Source of the DNA: Hyphomicrobiales bacterium
Lineage (GTDB): Bacteria; Pseudomonadota; Alphaproteobacteria; Rhizobiales; Rhizobiaceae
Reading direction: 5' to 3'
Length of the DNA: 64,000 nucleotides
Assembly (NCBI GenBank): GCA_900473175.1
Contig: UCKM01000013.1
Coordinates: 275,799-339,798, forward strand
Position numbers and translations under genes: made by a program. Positions within the stretch are counted from its first letter, which is position 1, and each line of letters opens with the position of its first letter. This document shows, in pieces, positions 4,080-16,846 of the stretch. The notes beneath the pieces were generated by a model. It saw only the letters and a program-made list of their open reading frames with translations, was not told the DNA's origin and did no database searches.

Positions 4080-4733
4080 TCAGGCGGTTTTGCCCGGGAC
4101 CGGCGTATTGAGAAGCTGCTGCTCCCAAAGATAGGCGATGCCGCTGCCGGCGAAGTGCTGGATGAGAATCTCGGTCAGCTGCTCGACATGCCCGGTGCGG
4201 GCCCAGTCGCGTTGCCATTCGCCAGCAAGCGCCATCACTGTCATCGGGTTCGCGCCGGCCGCGATCATTCGCTGGATGGCAACCTCGTGAGACTCCTTCG
4301 AAATCCCGCCTGACGCGTCGGTAATCACGGTCACGTCCCAGCCTTCACCGGCGGCCTGGATGACAGGCATCGCCACGCAGACCTCGGTCCAAAGGCCGGC
4401 GATGATCAGCTGCTTGCGGCCGGTCGCCTTGACGACGTTCACCACATTCTCGTCCTGCCAGGTGTTCACCCAAGTGCGATCGATGACCTCCTGGTCCGGA
4501 AATACGTCGGTGATCTGCTTGAAGAGAAGTCCGCCGCGCCCCGCGATCACGCTGGTGAGAATAGTCGGAACATCGAAGGCTTTTGCCAGCTTCGCCAGCG
4601 CGGTCGTGCTGTTGACCACAGCTTGCGGGTCGTGGCTGTTCAGGTTCGCCAGCTGATAGGGCTGATGGTCGATCAGAACGAGGACGGAGTCTTCGGGGCG
4701 GAGAAGGGAATCAAGGCCGTTACGAAAGGTCAT
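4080..4733 (-). CDS. isochorismatase-family cysteine hydrolase (YcaC-like)
   Basis: The protein has 217 residues, typical of the isochorismatase/nicotinamidase superfamily and close to the YcaC-like branch. The catalytic Asp lies in LVLIDHQPYQLANL (Asp22) and the nucleophile is Cys119 in GLWTEVCVAMPVIQAAGEGW; the usual Lys was not placed with certainty. It is predicted to be cytoplasmic and to hydrolyse an amide or enol ether. The ATG at 4733 has AGGA in its leader, and the product begins MTFRNGLDSLLRPEDSVLV. It is divergent from the second LysR gene. Two relics of a very similar gene occur at about 13.3 kb and 17.4 kb. The frame stays open far beyond the real start, which is not meaningful. 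Confidence 0.9.
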   Translation of the reverse strand: MTFRNGLDSLLRPEDSVLVLIDHQPYQLANLNSHDPQAVVNSTTALAKLAKAFDVPTILTSVIAGRGGLLFKQITDVFPDQEVIDRTWVNTWQDENVVNVVKATGRKQLIIAGLWTEVCVAMPVIQAAGEGWDVTVITDASGGISKESHEVAIQRMIAAGANPMTVMALAGEWQRDWARTGHVEQLTEILIQHFAGSGIAYLWEQQLLNTPVPGKTA

Positions 4734-4838
4734 GGTTTTATCCTGTGTTAGCGGTTCATTGGAGCGCTTTTGCTCAAAGGACATGCGCCCTTCGAGGCGC
4801 CGCCGCAGGACGAAACTTGTCATTCCTGTTTGTGATGC

Positions 4839-4871
4839 GGTAGTCCTTGTCTGTGCTAAGCTGTGTCGCAG
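4839..4871 (-). promoter_or_regulatory. repeated 33-bp LysR-type element, copy at isochorismatase/LysR divergon
   Basis: Read on the minus strand it is CTGCGACACAGCTT, an 11-base spacer, then GGACTACC. The same two blocks with exactly the same 11-base spacer appear at 13404, 9450 and 10906. It ends 16 bases before the GTG of the LysR gene and about 105 bases upstream of the isochorismatase start, a normal place for a LysR regulator to repress itself and activate its divergent target. Confidence 0.65.
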
Positions 4872-4886
4872 AATGGGGAACGCCAA

Positions 4887-5783
4887 GTGGATATCGAAGA
4901 TCTCCGGACATTCGTCGAGGTTGCTGATGCGGGCGGCGTCACATCGGCCGCGCTGCGGCTGGGCATCTCCAAATCGATGGTCAGTCGACGTCTTGTGCGG
5001 CTTGAAAAGGATTTGGGCGTGCAGTTGCTCGCCCGCACGACACGTGGCGCCGCCCTCACGGAGGCTGGAAACACTTTTCGGGAGCACGCTGCAAAGGTTT
5101 GCGCCGAGATCGACATTGCCAAGGAGACGATATTGCCCGCCGGCGACCTTCGCGGTCGACTGAGAATAGCAGCTCCGCTTACATTCGGTCCGACGCACTT
5201 CGCCCCCGTGCTCGCATCTCTGGCGCAGCGCCATCCGGAGTTGCAGGTTCACGCCAGCTATACCGATCGGTTCGTTGACCTGATCGCAGAAGGGTTCGAC
5301 TGCGCGATAAGGGTTGGCCATCTTGCTGACTCGAATATGCTTGCAAGGCGCGTCGGCTGGACCTCCGCCAAGTACGTTGCAACGCCGGACTACATCAAAA
5401 AGCACGGCTCGCCCGAGACGCCAGAGGAATTCCTCACGCATGAGGTCGTCATGCAGGGAACGGAAACCTGGCTGGCGATGGATGGAGACGAGATCATCAC
5501 GTTAAGGCCGCAGGGGCGCTTCAAAGCCGACAATGCCGTGGCTCTTGTGGCTGCTGCACTTGCCGGGATTGGTCTTGCCGGTGTCCCAGAAGAATTGATC
5601 AGGGAGCATCTGGCTTCCGGCGCGTTGGTCCCGGTCATGACGCGCTATCCACCGCCCAAATTGGGTATCTATGTCGTACGACCACCGGGGCAGCACCCCG
5701 CACGCAAGATACGGGTGCTCACCGAGATGTTGGTCGAGTGTTTTGAAGACTTTTCGACAGATCGTCACACGCGATCTGGTTGA
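4887..5783 (+). CDS. LysR-family transcriptional regulator (paralogue 2)
   Basis: This 298-residue LysR regulator is divergent from the isochorismatase-family gene. The helix-turn-helix is in the first 60 residues (VDIEDLRTFVEVADAGGV, then LRLGISKSMVSRRLVRLEK), followed by the binding domain with ASYTDRFVDLIAEGFDCAIR. I chose GTG at 4887 rather than GTG at 4863 because it has GGGGAA six bases upstream and aligns exactly with the ATG of paralogue 1 and the GTG of paralogue 3; the 8-residue extension is not conserved. It most likely controls the divergent gene through the element at 4839-4871. Its 3' end runs into a decayed TetR fragment. Confidence 0.92.
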   Translation: MDIEDLRTFVEVADAGGVTSAALRLGISKSMVSRRLVRLEKDLGVQLLARTTRGAALTEAGNTFREHAAKVCAEIDIAKETILPAGDLRGRLRIAAPLTFGPTHFAPVLASLAQRHPELQVHASYTDRFVDLIAEGFDCAIRVGHLADSNMLARRVGWTSAKYVATPDYIKKHGSPETPEEFLTHEVVMQGTETWLAMDGDEIITLRPQGRFKADNAVALVAAALAGIGLAGVPEELIREHLASGALVPVMTRYPPPKLGIYVVRPPGQHPARKIRVLTEMLVECFEDFSTDRHTRSG

Positions 5784-6027
5784 AGCCGCTAGGGCTCTGG
5801 CTTCTACACACACTCCGCTGGACGCACTCCGTGAATGGTTGGAAGCATTCATCGATTACATCGCCACCAAGCAGATAATCGCGGAGGCGACCAGCGCACT
5901 GGTCTCACCGTCTTCCGACCTCATGCGCGCCATTGCCGGGGTGGCGACATTCGGTCCTCAGACAGAATGGGAACACAACGCAAGACGGTTGGTCCGCATT
6001 CTTGTCGCAGGACTAAGTACCAGGTGA
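5764..6027 (+). pseudogene. decayed TetR-family regulator, C-terminal remnant
   Basis: The frame from 5764 to the stop at 6025-6027 reads LVEAARALASTHTPLDALREW, FIDYIATKQIIAEATSALV, then MRAIAGVATFGP and ARRLVRILVAGL. These match the C-terminal ligand-binding half of a common TetR/AcrR subgroup, in order. The DNA-binding half is missing, and about 25-30 residues expected between the SALVSPSSDL and MRAIAGV blocks have been deleted. The first bases overlap the end of the LysR gene. No start codon or Shine-Dalgarno sequence fits this fragment, so I call it a relic. The LysR gene may have been joined to it by a deletion. Confidence 0.7.
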
Positions 6028-6212
6028 TGTAGCGGTAATTATGGGCAAACCGTGCGTCTACCTGGATCTGGGTATCACGTTGCTCCCCAAGAGCCTCGGA
6101 ACATGTCGGATAAGGTCGATGGACAATGCCATACACCATGTTCAATCTCTATGTCTCGGACCTGACGTGAGCCGACGTCTACACACAATTTCTCACCGGT
6201 CCGCCAATTACG

Positions 6213-14477: not shown

Positions 14478-16043
14478 TCATGACTTCGCTCGCACCACCG
14501 TCTGCCGCGGAAAGAGAATCCCTCCAGAAGATGTCTTCGCTCCGCTGACAACGAGTGGAGCGTCATACCTTGCCGGGCAACATATCCCGAGCCTCGTGTG
14601 CAGCCGTGAAGCTGATTCAGGCAGAAACGGTAGTAAGCAGCGAGCGACGATGGCGAGCCCATGGACCTGCTCCGCCAGTGTCGCACCAAGACGAGCCGAA
14701 ATCCTTTGCCGTCCCGTATGGTTGAGCTCGCCGAGCAAGGCCTTGGCATCAGACCAGGGCGCTTTCCGCGTAAACTCCCTGTTCGCGGACCCCAGATAGG
14801 AAAAGATTTCTGTCAGGCCGACGTGAAGTTCGTAGTTATCGAAGGCATCCAGAATCTTTTCGGGAAGACGCGCTGCTTCGCGAACAAGGGCACTGTCGGG
14901 AACGGCTGGCGTTACACCGGAGAAGGACGAAGACAGTAATGTGAGAACCCGATTGAGGAGATTTCCAAGCTGCCCGCCAAGTTCTCCCGACCACGCGGCC
15001 TCGAGCCGTTCCTCGGAGAAATCCCCATCATGGGCCGAACGGATATGGCGGAGCAGGTAATAACGAAGTGCGTCCGGAGTCTGGTAGTTTTGAACGAGAC
15101 CATCGGGATCGATGCCGTTGCCGGTCGATTTCCCGATCTTCCGCCCGTTGGCGGTCAGGTAGCCATGAACGTAGATCGACGACGGCAGCGGTACGCCAGC
15201 GGAAAGGAGTATCGCCGGCCAGTAGATCGCATGGAACTTGGATATCCCCTTTCCGACGAAGTGAATGCGCTCGCCCTGGCGCGCCCAATATTGGCTGAAC
15301 AGCGCCTCGTCGGAACCGTAACCGAGCCCTGTCAGGTAGTTCGCCAAGGCATCGAACCAGACATAGATAACTTCGTCGTTGTCGGGCACGGGCACTCCCC
15401 AGCCGCGTGCCCTTTCGGCACTGCGCGACACACTGATGTCCTCGAGCCCGCGCCGGAGCAAGGCAAGTATCTCGTTTCGCCGGTGAACCGGCACGACCTG
15501 AAGCTCCTCTGTCTCGATCAGACGAAGGATACGGTTGCCATATCCGGAGAGGCGGAAGAACCAGTTTTCTTCCTTGACGACTTCAAGCGGGATACCGTGC
15601 TCCGGGCATCGGCCGTCATCGAGATCTGGTAGGTCGTAGAACTGCTCACAGCCCACGCAATAAAAGCCCTCATAGCTCTTTCGATAAAGATCGCCATTCT
15701 TCGCACATGCGTTCCAGAGCGAATGAACGCAGGCAGCATGTCTTGAATCAGCGGATGTGCGGACGAACGCGTCGCTTGAGATGTGGAGGCGCTTGCCAAG
15801 CTCTTCGAAGTGGTCTGCATTTTCGCCGACGAAGTCGGCCACGGGGCGTCCCGCCGCCTCCGCGGCACGGACGTTCTTCAGGCTGTTATCATCCGTCCCG
15901 CACTGAAACCTGACGTCGTTGCCGAGAAGTCGGGAATGGCGAGCATAAGCGTCGGCCTGCACGAGTTCGAGCGCAAAACCCACATGTGGTGCGGCATTGA
16001 CGTATGGAATCGAGGTTGTGATGTAAGTCGTTGTGTTGTTCAT
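14478..16043 (-). CDS. metG: methionyl-tRNA synthetase, second-type (MetG paralogue)
   Basis: The 521-residue enzyme charges tRNA-Met with methionine. It has the class I HIGH-type motif as PHVGFA (residues 19-24), a single zinc knuckle (Cys129, Cys132, Cys146, His149 in YCVGCEQF and RCPEHG), and the KMSKS-type motif as KIGKS (302-306). The C-terminal helical anticodon domain runs to about 490, with no tRNA-binding C-terminal extension. It lacks the double-zinc insert of long MetRS enzymes. Its setting among accessory genes suggests a spare or resistance copy, with the main gene elsewhere; that is inference. The ATG at 16043 has AAGGA in its leader. A Met-codon leader peptide and terminator lie immediately upstream and probably regulate it by attenuation. 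Confidence 0.9.
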   Translation of the reverse strand: MNNTTTYITTSIPYVNAAPHVGFALELVQADAYARHSRLLGNDVRFQCGTDDNSLKNVRAAEAAGRPVADFVGENADHFEELGKRLHISSDAFVRTSADSRHAACVHSLWNACAKNGDLYRKSYEGFYCVGCEQFYDLPDLDDGRCPEHGIPLEVVKEENWFFRLSGYGNRILRLIETEELQVVPVHRRNEILALLRRGLEDISVSRSAERARGWGVPVPDNDEVIYVWFDALANYLTGLGYGSDEALFSQYWARQGERIHFVGKGISKFHAIYWPAILLSAGVPLPSSIYVHGYLTANGRKIGKSTGNGIDPDGLVQNYQTPDALRYYLLRHIRSAHDGDFSEERLEAAWSGELGGQLGNLLNRVLTLLSSSFSGVTPAVPDSALVREAARLPEKILDAFDNYELHVGLTEIFSYLGSANREFTRKAPWSDAKALLGELNHTGRQRISARLGATLAEQVHGLAIVARCLLPFLPESASRLHTRLGICCPARYDAPLVVSGAKTSSGGILFPRQTVVRAKS

Positions 16044-16092
16044 TGGGATATCCTTGTGGAGGTTGAATATCCCTCAAGGCGGATCGACCAAT

Positions 16093-16116
16093 GAAAAACC
16101 GCCTCAAGGGCGGTCT
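16093..16116 (-). terminator. metG: intrinsic terminator inside the metG leader (attenuator arms 3:4)
   Basis: On the minus strand the stem is ACCGCC (16114-16109) and GGCGGT (16103-16098) around a CTTGA loop, followed by a run of four more T. It ends about 50 bases before the metG start, so it would stop transcription before the gene. The left arm can instead pair with GGCGG at 16146-16142 (arm 2). Confidence 0.75.
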
Positions 16117-16141
16117 AAGGTGCATAAAAAGCGCACAAAAT

Positions 16142-16177
16142 CCGCCACGCTAGGAGCGCAGCATCATCATCGTGGCG
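16142..16177 (-). promoter_or_regulatory. metG: metG leader pause/antiterminator region (arms 1 and 2)
   Basis: On the minus strand, CGCCACG (16177-16171) can pair with CGTGGCG (16149-16143), and the three Met codons lie in the loop. The right arm, extended to GGCGG, can alternatively pair with CCGCC of the terminator stem. A ribosome stalled at the Met codons would cover arm 1 and free arm 2 to form the antiterminator. This is the standard geometry of leader-peptide attenuation. Confidence 0.65.
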
Positions 16178-16197
16178 TTGGCAAAAAGTGTGTCCAT
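16150..16197 (-). CDS. metG leader peptide with three consecutive Met codons
   Basis: A short minus-strand frame from ATG 16197 encodes MDTLFANATMMMLRS and stops at TAG (16152-16150). The three Met codons in a row (16170-16162) lie inside a predicted hairpin, and the stop codon overlaps its right side. The peptide ends about 35 bases before the terminator that precedes methionyl-tRNA synthetase. The likely role is to sense charged tRNA-Met by ribosome position, as Phe, Trp or Leu leader peptides do for their genes. The Shine-Dalgarno match upstream of ATG 16197 is weak; a shorter peptide starting at one of the three internal ATGs is possible. Confidence 0.65.
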   Translation of the reverse strand: MDTLFANATMMMLRS

Positions 16198-16846
16198 ATC
16201 GTCACTGCTATCATGTGGAGACGCCGGGAACAAGATCGCGACTGAGAGCTTTGCCAGCGCCGAAGCGGCAAATGGCGAGACCGTTCTTCTTCGATCAGGC
16301 CTGCCCGGCCGAGCTGGTGACCGGCCACGGCATCGATGTTCGGCCCCACCACTTTATCGGCCTTGGCACTGTCAGACGTCTGTATCGCGGTGACTTTCAT
16401 TGCCGCTGCAGCACTCGGGCTGACCAGATTATCCGTCCTGGTGCGTTGGACCCGATGGTCGCAGGGCGTGGTGTTTCCCATTGCGAGCAGTCAGGCGGTG
16501 CGCGTTCCGCCTTTGGTGACTGAGTATTGCGAATAGCGGGACTACCCAACCTATGGCGGCATCGATACCAACCGCGTTGAAAGGTTGGTCGGCAAGATGA
16601 GGGTTATCTCGGGTCGTCGCCCGGAAGGCGAACGACGAGGGAGCGCGGTAGCACTTCGGAAGGAAAGGGAACGCCAGGAGGCTGTTCTCAAAGATGGGAG
16701 TAAACAGCAGCAACGGGCACTCTCTCGGCGCATCAACGACCGCGAGCTTACGCAGGCGGCAAAAGCTATCTGTCGTTTCTCAGCACCCCCAGAGCAGGAA
16801 CTGTGGCAGCACAATTGAAGTACACTAACAACACGTGAGGTGAACA
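16198..16846. other. unassigned region upstream of metG leader
   Basis: These 650 bases have several open frames on both strands, none with a convincing start, Shine-Dalgarno sequence or recognisable domain. The promoter of the metG leader should lie near 16210-16260 on the minus strand. A plus-strand stretch at 16585-16818 is rich in Arg, Glu and Gln and looks like chance coding. I see no insertion-sequence ends. Confidence 0.4.

Follow-up and report, generated by a model that had tools for sequence, protein, structure and literature searches.

How might the expression of a second methionyl-tRNA synthetase (MetRS) gene be adjusted in a bacterium that has another MetRS? The question is raised by a 64,000-nucleotide stretch of DNA from a Hyphomicrobiales bacterium of the family Rhizobiaceae (assembly GCA_900473175.1, contig UCKM01000013.1, positions 275,799 to 339,798 of the forward strand), which is called the window in the following. 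On its minus strand the window carries metG2, a gene encoding an auxiliary MetRS, and ahead of it a leader that comprises a short upstream open reading frame (uORF) with three consecutive methionine codons and an intrinsic terminator. Comparison of homologous leaders and folding models make it highly probable, in our judgement, that this leader acts as a methionine-specific, ribosome-mediated transcription attenuator that controls metG2.

The metG2 leader and its proposed mode of action

The initial annotation had reported a minus-strand frame of 15 residues with three Met codons in a row, an intrinsic terminator about 50 bases ahead of metG, a competing pairing of GGCGG with CCGCC and all four arms of a classical attenuator. 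Each of these elements was recovered, and the features of the locus are listed below, with positions counted from the first base of the window.

16205..16233, minus strand: predicted promoter, read from sequence only, with TTGTTC (16233-16228), a 17-base spacer ending in TGA, and TAGCAG (16210-16205)
16150..16197, minus strand: leader uORF MDTLFANATMMMLRS, 15 codons from ATG at 16197 to TAG at 16150, by sequence reading and scripted coordinates; its transcript is probably leaderless
16162..16170, minus strand: three consecutive Met codons, predicted to be regulatory
16155..16161, minus strand: segment 1, CTGCGCT, immediately 3' of the Met codons, from the helices of the alignment and scripted coordinates
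16142..16151, minus strand: segment 2, AGCGTGGCGG, partner of segment 1 or, via GGCGG, of segment 3
16120..16136, minus strand: middle stem GTGCG...TGCAC, nested within the antiterminator
16109..16114, minus strand: segment 3, ACCGCC, which forms the 5' side of the terminator or, alternatively, the 3' side of the antiterminator
16096..16116, minus strand: intrinsic terminator (3:4), AGACCGCC-CTTGA-GGCGGTTT, with a T run on to 16094
16051..16055, minus strand: Shine-Dalgarno-like AAGGA of metG2
14478..16043, minus strand: metG2, auxiliary methionyl-tRNA synthetase of 521 amino acids, above the curated cut-off of TIGR00398

The Met codons occupy positions 16170-16162, and the first two bases of segment 2 are shared with the stop codon of the uORF. 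The antiterminator joins GGCGG (16146-16142) to CCGCC (16113-16109), the pairings 1:2, 2:3 and 3:4 are mutually exclusive, and the metG2 start at 16043 lies about 53 bases beyond the terminator. One detail of the annotation had to be revised: the first hairpin CGCCACG (16177-16171)/CGTGGCG (16149-16143) does exist in the window, but only 4 of the 31 alignment rows (the window, L003, L005 and L030) have an identical 5' arm, and the conserved first helix is CTGCGCT/AGCGTGG, formed by 16161-16155 with 16151-16145. When both strands of the window are considered and nested starts counted apart, the leader uORF is the single one among 687 ATG-started frames of 8-30 codons to have an internal run of three Met; at the related loci L003-L032 such a run occurs in 32 of 3379 frames, all of them starting inside the 100 bases that hold the leader.

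The designation of metG2 as a second MetRS gene was confirmed as well, since another MetRS of the same genome (G000, 45 contigs) scores better against TIGR00398, with 498.6 bits as compared with 350.3 bits for metG2; set against the curated cut-off of 336.35 bits, metG2 reached 358.5 bits. In all 35 genomes checked, namely the window's own, the 30 of L003-L032 and G560, G617, G741 and G038, metG2 is an extra copy, each genome having at least two MetRS genes.

According to the scheme that we propose, transcription would begin at or beside the AUG of the leader. With ample methionyl-tRNA (Met-tRNA), a ribosome would clear the run of AUG codons, reach the stop codon and cover segment 2, so that the 3:4 hairpin could form and transcription would terminate. 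If Met-tRNA were short, because of starvation or because the housekeeping MetRS fails or is inhibited, the ribosome would stall on the AUG run and cover segment 1; segment 2 could then take segment 3 before segment 4 exists, and the polymerase would continue into metG2.

Conservation of the leader among metG2 genes

From a scan of named genomes the best 80 of 225 relatives were kept, which correspond to 79 loci. Thirty of these (L003-L032) are rhizobial and 66-94% identical, the remainder being 50% identical or less; the thirty belong to Phyllobacterium, Rhizobium, Pararhizobium, Neorhizobium, Xaviernesmea, Martelella and other Rhizobiales. The leader is present at every one of them, including L005 and L032, where metG2 itself is apparently and perhaps, respectively, interrupted. 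Plasmid records yielded 18 matches at an E value of 1e-80, nine of which, including two from Streptomycetaceae, were taken for reading; H2 and H9 (apparent sister records of H1 and H8), the partial H18 and H12-H17 (35-40% identical) were left out. The leader was found at six intact plasmid genes of the rhizobial type (L117-L120, L124 and L125), and at L123, where the metG2 match starts at residue 88, it lies about 2.9 kb upstream of the match. The count of 37 rhizobial-type leaders omits L082, L084 and L085, which represent the genes of L004, L020 and L027 again.

The alignment of homologous leaders had been suggested as a check by the initial annotation, and such leaders turned out to keep Met codons and stems, with promoter-like sequence just upstream; the arrangement was present in 37 of 37. 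The uORF is likewise kept in all 37, in 29 distinct versions of 15, 16, 17 or 23 codons. At least three consecutive Met codons are present in 34 leaders, and two of the three in L021, L022 and L028, where Val (L021, L022) or Thr (L028) takes the place of one Met. Counted back from the following Pro or Leu codon, each of the three positions is ATG in 28 of the 29 distinct uORFs, and in an equal number a TAG stop follows three codons past the run. In L118 (Agrobacterium pusense, 2856-2964) the stop is lost and the frame passes segment 2 to the middle stem, with the Met run and the helices kept. In the alignment of 31 rows (28 distinct), pairing is present in 99.6% of the 504 cells that make up helices 1:2, middle and 3:4, and in 99.3% of the 280 cells of 2:3 plus the middle stem; the latter shows a change from G-U to A-U in three sequences. 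Of 43 leaders, the distant ones described below included, 42 were found by script to have an intrinsic terminator ahead of the gene and after the uORF; in the miss, L120, the T run behind the hairpin is weak.

The promoter-like sequence was searched for with spacers of 15-19 bases and a distance of 4-9 bases to the ATG, the best fit being kept. A pattern TTG-N17-TGn-TA, its hexamer ending 5-7 bases 5' of the leader ATG, occurs in all 37 rhizobial-type leaders, and in the window the hexamer TAGCAG stands 7 bases ahead of the ATG. Altogether the pattern was present in 40 of 43 leaders: L086-L088 have TTGACA, an 18-base spacer and a hexamer 5 bases ahead of the ATG, and L083, L121 and L122 do not fit. 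As judged from this spacing, the transcript probably starts at or near the leader ATG, i.e. it would be leaderless. In a crude Shine-Dalgarno test, 20 of 43 leaders had a match of 4-5 bases whose distance from the leader ATG was 4-17 bases (23 of 31 for metG2 itself), so that a ribosome-binding site of the leader is excluded only if transcription truly begins at the ATG.

A covariance model of the leader, designated R1, was used to determine where the leader occurs. It detected 4 of 394 genomes of the family at an E value of 1.7e-25 or better, the next match having 5e-5, and these are exactly the four genomes that contain a metG2 of 66% identity or more; strong scores were confined to the sites of such metG2 genes. 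This confinement bears on another explanation, according to which the leader is conserved because its peptide or the RNA ending at the terminator works in trans, like peTrpL and rnTrpL of Sinorhizobium meliloti. The similar length, the predicted leaderless start and the relatedness of the bacteria speak for it, as far as the available text of the reports on that system goes (PMC7298713, PMC10117765). However, apart from the Met run and the part encoded by segment 1 the peptide is variable, and in the 394 genomes R1 found the leader only together with metG2; moreover, action in trans is compatible with attenuation rather than exclusive of it. We regard this explanation of the conservation as very unlikely.

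The possibility that such a leader is a general property of metG genes was rejected. At an E value of 1, R1 gave no match at the housekeeping metG of eight loci from genomes that also have metG2 (L126 and L134-L140), and a uORF of 5-40 codons containing two adjacent Met, within up to 350 bases upstream, was present at just three (L034, L040 and L073) of 48 other MetRS loci (L033-L081 without L071). L034 was discarded as a further Met leader, its promoter-like stretch lying after the uORF by eye. L040, from a member of the Armatimonadota in which it is the sole MetRS found, has a uORF with three consecutive Met and a strong hairpin within 260 bases upstream of 2595, arranged on a different plan; as a further case it was dropped, its capture in the stall model described below being low at the Met codons (0.33, 0.27 and 0.09).

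When the limit for R1 was relaxed to an E value of 0.01, 26 of the 394 genomes were detected. Thirteen of the 24 rows below the four strong matches were read by eye. One of them is a trp leader, MNKTMNIAANWWRTLS (L103, G565:C5:128824-128936; E 0.0016), whose weak detection shows the likeness of plan. L093 (G550:C3:148754-148870, about 1500-1620 on the minus strand; E 5e-5) has a uORF, MNNTHKTNLSIMTTVH, followed by hairpins and a terminator before a small SnoaL-like-looking gene, and may be a further attenuator. L115 (G430:C2:505943-506043; E 0.0014) contains four consecutive ATG codons and then CTGCGC and GCGTGG; an arrangement of stop and terminator was not visible on reading, and the match is perhaps due to chance. 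In the other ten, no Met leader with a terminator was recognised by eye.

Leaders of the same plan were also identified ahead of six distant metG2 genes of 47-53% identity, four of them in the order of the window (L083, from another family, and L086-L088; 50-53%) and two on plasmids of Streptomycetaceae (L121 from Embleya and L122 from Streptomyces; 47-48%). Their uORFs read MPTHPASSSRFTMMPLSQIEVARVVV in L083, MT(S/C)LP(I/L)N(A/T)LS(C/R)MMMPLSIREADPFA in L086-L088, MITRSFQMMPRRRGC in L121 and MITPSRQHRMMPRTRGC in L122. All six contain two or three Met codons, with only two in L083, L121 and L122, and except at the Met run the sequences are unlike the rhizobial ones. With R1, L086-L088 gave weak matches (E 0.002 to 0.008), L083 and L121 were not significant (E 0.24 and 0.38), and L122 gave none at an E value of 1. 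The segments proposed for four of these leaders, chosen by eye and folding in a post hoc comparison, are as follows.

L083: 1:2 TGCC-CCTC/GAGG-T-GGCA; 2:3 GAGGTGG/CCGCCTC; 3:4 GACCGCCTC/GAGGCGGTT
L086: 1:2 CCGCT/AGCGG; 2:3 GAAGCGG/CCGCTTC; 3:4 AAGCCGCTTC/GAGGCGGCTT
L121: 1:2 CCCCGC/GCGGGG; 2:3 CGGGG/CCCCG; 3:4 CGAGGCCCC/GGGGCCTCG
L122: 1:2 GCCCCG/CGGGGC; 2:3 CGGGG/CCCCG; 3:4 GGCCCC/GGGGCC

In each of them segment 1 begins no more than two bases past the end of the Met run, and it is only between lineages that the helices show compensatory differences. Longer 2:3 pairings were tried for L118 and L122 and did not hold.

The residues next to the Met run lead to a further explanation, an attenuator in which the ribosome is stalled by the nascent peptide (MMMPR or MMMLR) or by a ribosome-bound drug or small molecule and not by a lack of Met-tRNA. 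Leaders of the TnaC and Erm types are stalled in such a manner. In 28 of the 29 distinct rhizobial-type uORFs the Met run is followed by Pro or Leu and then Arg, and MMP recurs in the six distant uORFs. On the other hand, the residues ahead of the run are variable among the rhizobial-type uORFs, Arg, Ser or Leu follows the Pro or Leu across lineages, and the run is limited to two Met in three of the distant types (L083, L121 and L122). Segment 1 accounts for the C-rich codons past the run, and the controlled gene makes Met-tRNA. Stalling by peptide or drug is therefore considered unlikely, and Met-tRNA is preferred as the signal.

The metG2 gene itself is rare. With the window's own genome included each time, it was detected in 3 of 397 genomes of the order, 7 of 394 of the family (four with 66% identity or more and three of a diverged type) and 1 of 385 of the class, at E limits of 1e-120, 1e-120 and 1e-118, respectively. 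In a midpoint-rooted tree of 39 MetRS rows, which carries a long-branch warning, the 22 leader-bearing proteins constitute one clade (99/94) that is separate from eight housekeeping MetRS (100/100) and is joined next by L034 and L040 (91/81). The patchy occurrence and the plasmid location suggest that metG2 has moved by transfer. Neighbouring genes are common to the near relatives L117 and L124 and different in L119, L122 and the window, so that metG2 looks like a stand-alone gene. The genomes that carry L025 and L026 also encode a third, divergent MetRS-like protein (L149, complement of 4595-6208, and L150). The L149 protein has 538 residues from stop to stop and an altered KMSKS region, and genes that look, on sequence reading, like those for an N-monooxygenase, a phytanoyl-CoA-type dioxygenase and NodD-like LysR regulators lie nearby; the region may be a gene cluster for a natural product that includes a synthetase-like enzyme of its own.

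Folding of the leader and points against attenuation

The switch was modelled on transcripts cut before segment 4, and the pairing of segment 3 with RNA upstream of it was scored as capture; L120 was omitted, since its terminator had been missed by the script. Mean capture was 0.81 when the A site was occupied by a Met codon, 0.62 with other codons, 0.38 without a ribosome and 0.20 at the last position, and the Met mean exceeded the three other states in 42 of 42 leaders. Capture without a ribosome was 0.00 in L117, L121 and L122 and mixed in others, up to 0.79; the contrast is large in L117, for instance, with 0.86 at Met. The trpL leader of E. coli K-12, treated in the same way as a control, gave 0.71 at the Trp codons, 0.29 without a ribosome and 0.03 at the stop. 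The capture plateau extends beyond the Met run: for an 11-base footprint, equally good windows make up a share of 0.14-0.25 in the leader of the window, L083, L086 and L121. The model supports the attenuation scheme without proving it.

Several results weigh against this reading. In full-length equilibrium folds of 16 leaders, from which the ribosome-covered part had been removed, the terminator was kept at almost every position of the ribosome, so that the switch must act during transcription. In many rhizobial leaders the contrast between states is small (e.g. 0.65 without a ribosome and 0.74-0.75 at Met in L017), and the rhizobial trp leader L103 was nearly flat as a control (0.65 without a ribosome, 0.67 at the Trp codons and 0.31 at the stop); both findings slightly reduce our confidence in the attenuator and slightly raise that in stalling by the nascent peptide. 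As to where the Met run lies with respect to the best stall window, the statistics are only suggestive, with combined p values of 0.23, 0.08 and 0.09 for footprints of 8, 11 and 14 bases. Compensatory changes were found in 0 of 18 and 0 of 10 pairs within the close group (31 rows, 28 distinct), an absence of both-side changes that is in keeping with the double duty of segments 2 and 3, each of which takes part in two helices, and with the additional coding role of segment 1.

Considered singly, the window leader is inconspicuous. Its folding energy is ordinary (z -1.62, with 12 of 200 shuffles equally good), a stricter generic scan of the window returned no promoter, and a generic terminator scan missed the leader terminator and flagged a helix at 16163-16143, at about the rate of shuffled sequence (1 versus 0.8). 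The lack of significance of folding energy and generic scans would suit a chance uORF beside a constitutive weak terminator that holds metG2 at a low, fixed level of transcription. The conservation of 37 leaders and the rebuilding of the same plan in unrelated sequences make this explanation extremely unlikely.

A further point against a Met-specific attenuator concerns the signal itself. MetRS also charges the initiator tRNA, which the leader needs for its own translation, and a severe shortage of Met-tRNA should cut leader translation. Deep shortage should hence leave the leader without a ribosome, and a shortage of elongator tRNA that spares the initiator tRNA should be what the sensor reports best. 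It is possible, although doubtful, that a backup MetRS travels between distant bacteria with its own attenuator, that this attenuator copes with a difficulty peculiar to methionine, the need to initiate translation while signalling a lack of elongator Met-tRNA, by reading the difference in charging of the two tRNAs, and that the system serves as an inducible defence against natural MetRS poisons of soil neighbours.

Relation to known leaders of synthetase and amino acid genes

If the attenuation scheme is true, the leader would be a natural reporter of Met-tRNA charging, and the dual role of MetRS asks how a ribosome-based sensor reports the lack of the amino acid that starts proteins. More speculatively, the rhizosphere may contain natural inhibitors of MetRS, as a second MetRS with a starvation switch would suggest. 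In many Gram-positive bacteria the same task is performed for synthetase genes by the T-box riboswitch, which reads uncharged tRNA directly; a T-box or SAM riboswitch was dismissed for the window, which contains no match to these or any other Rfam family at gathering score. A counterpart in biological role is the trpRS1 gene of Streptomyces coelicolor, for an auxiliary, antibiotic-resistant tryptophanyl-tRNA synthetase that, as reportedly described by Vecchione and Sello, is under leader-peptide attenuation. A spare synthetase is induced there via leader codons when the housekeeping one fails; the system differs in that Trp replaces Met and in that an inhibitor, indolmycin, is known for trpRS1 only.

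The initial annotation had been aware of no Met-sensing leader for a MetRS gene. This holds for metG, since searches of open-licence papers brought up none that was recognised as describing a Met leader ahead of it, but not for methionine leaders as such: the metL leader before metN of Streptomyces lividans has been proposed to be Met-dependent and likewise involves a leaderless uORF with several Met codons, although, as far as the available text tells, it precedes a transporter gene, its Met codons are non-consecutive and there is no clear terminator (PMC8079986). Synthetase genes under leaders with their own codon include pheST of gamma-proteobacteria, trpS, leuS, alaS and thrS of Streptomyces and hisS paralogues of bacilli; metG is not among the genes named in the accessible parts of these papers (PMC1262725, PMC8079986, PMC2965389). 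The theory of codon choice (PMC1183508) and duplicated synthetases (PMC9437257, PMC4787780) have been treated elsewhere, again as seen from partial text.

A likeness in construction is found in trpL/rnTrpL of S. meliloti and other rhizobia, for which the accessible text describes a short leaderless uORF, a run of a single codon near its end and a terminator, the trpL transcript of S. meliloti being reported as leaderless (PMC10117765, PMC7298713). The rhizobial trp attenuator, with its Trp run before trpE, was excluded as the identity of the window leader, which has Met codons before metG2: there, Trp codons precede a biosynthetic gene, whereas here Met codons precede that of a tRNA synthetase. 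Judged from its sequence, the metG2 leader very probably follows the classical plan of attenuation and would extend the control of synthetase genes by leader peptides to methionine and metG.

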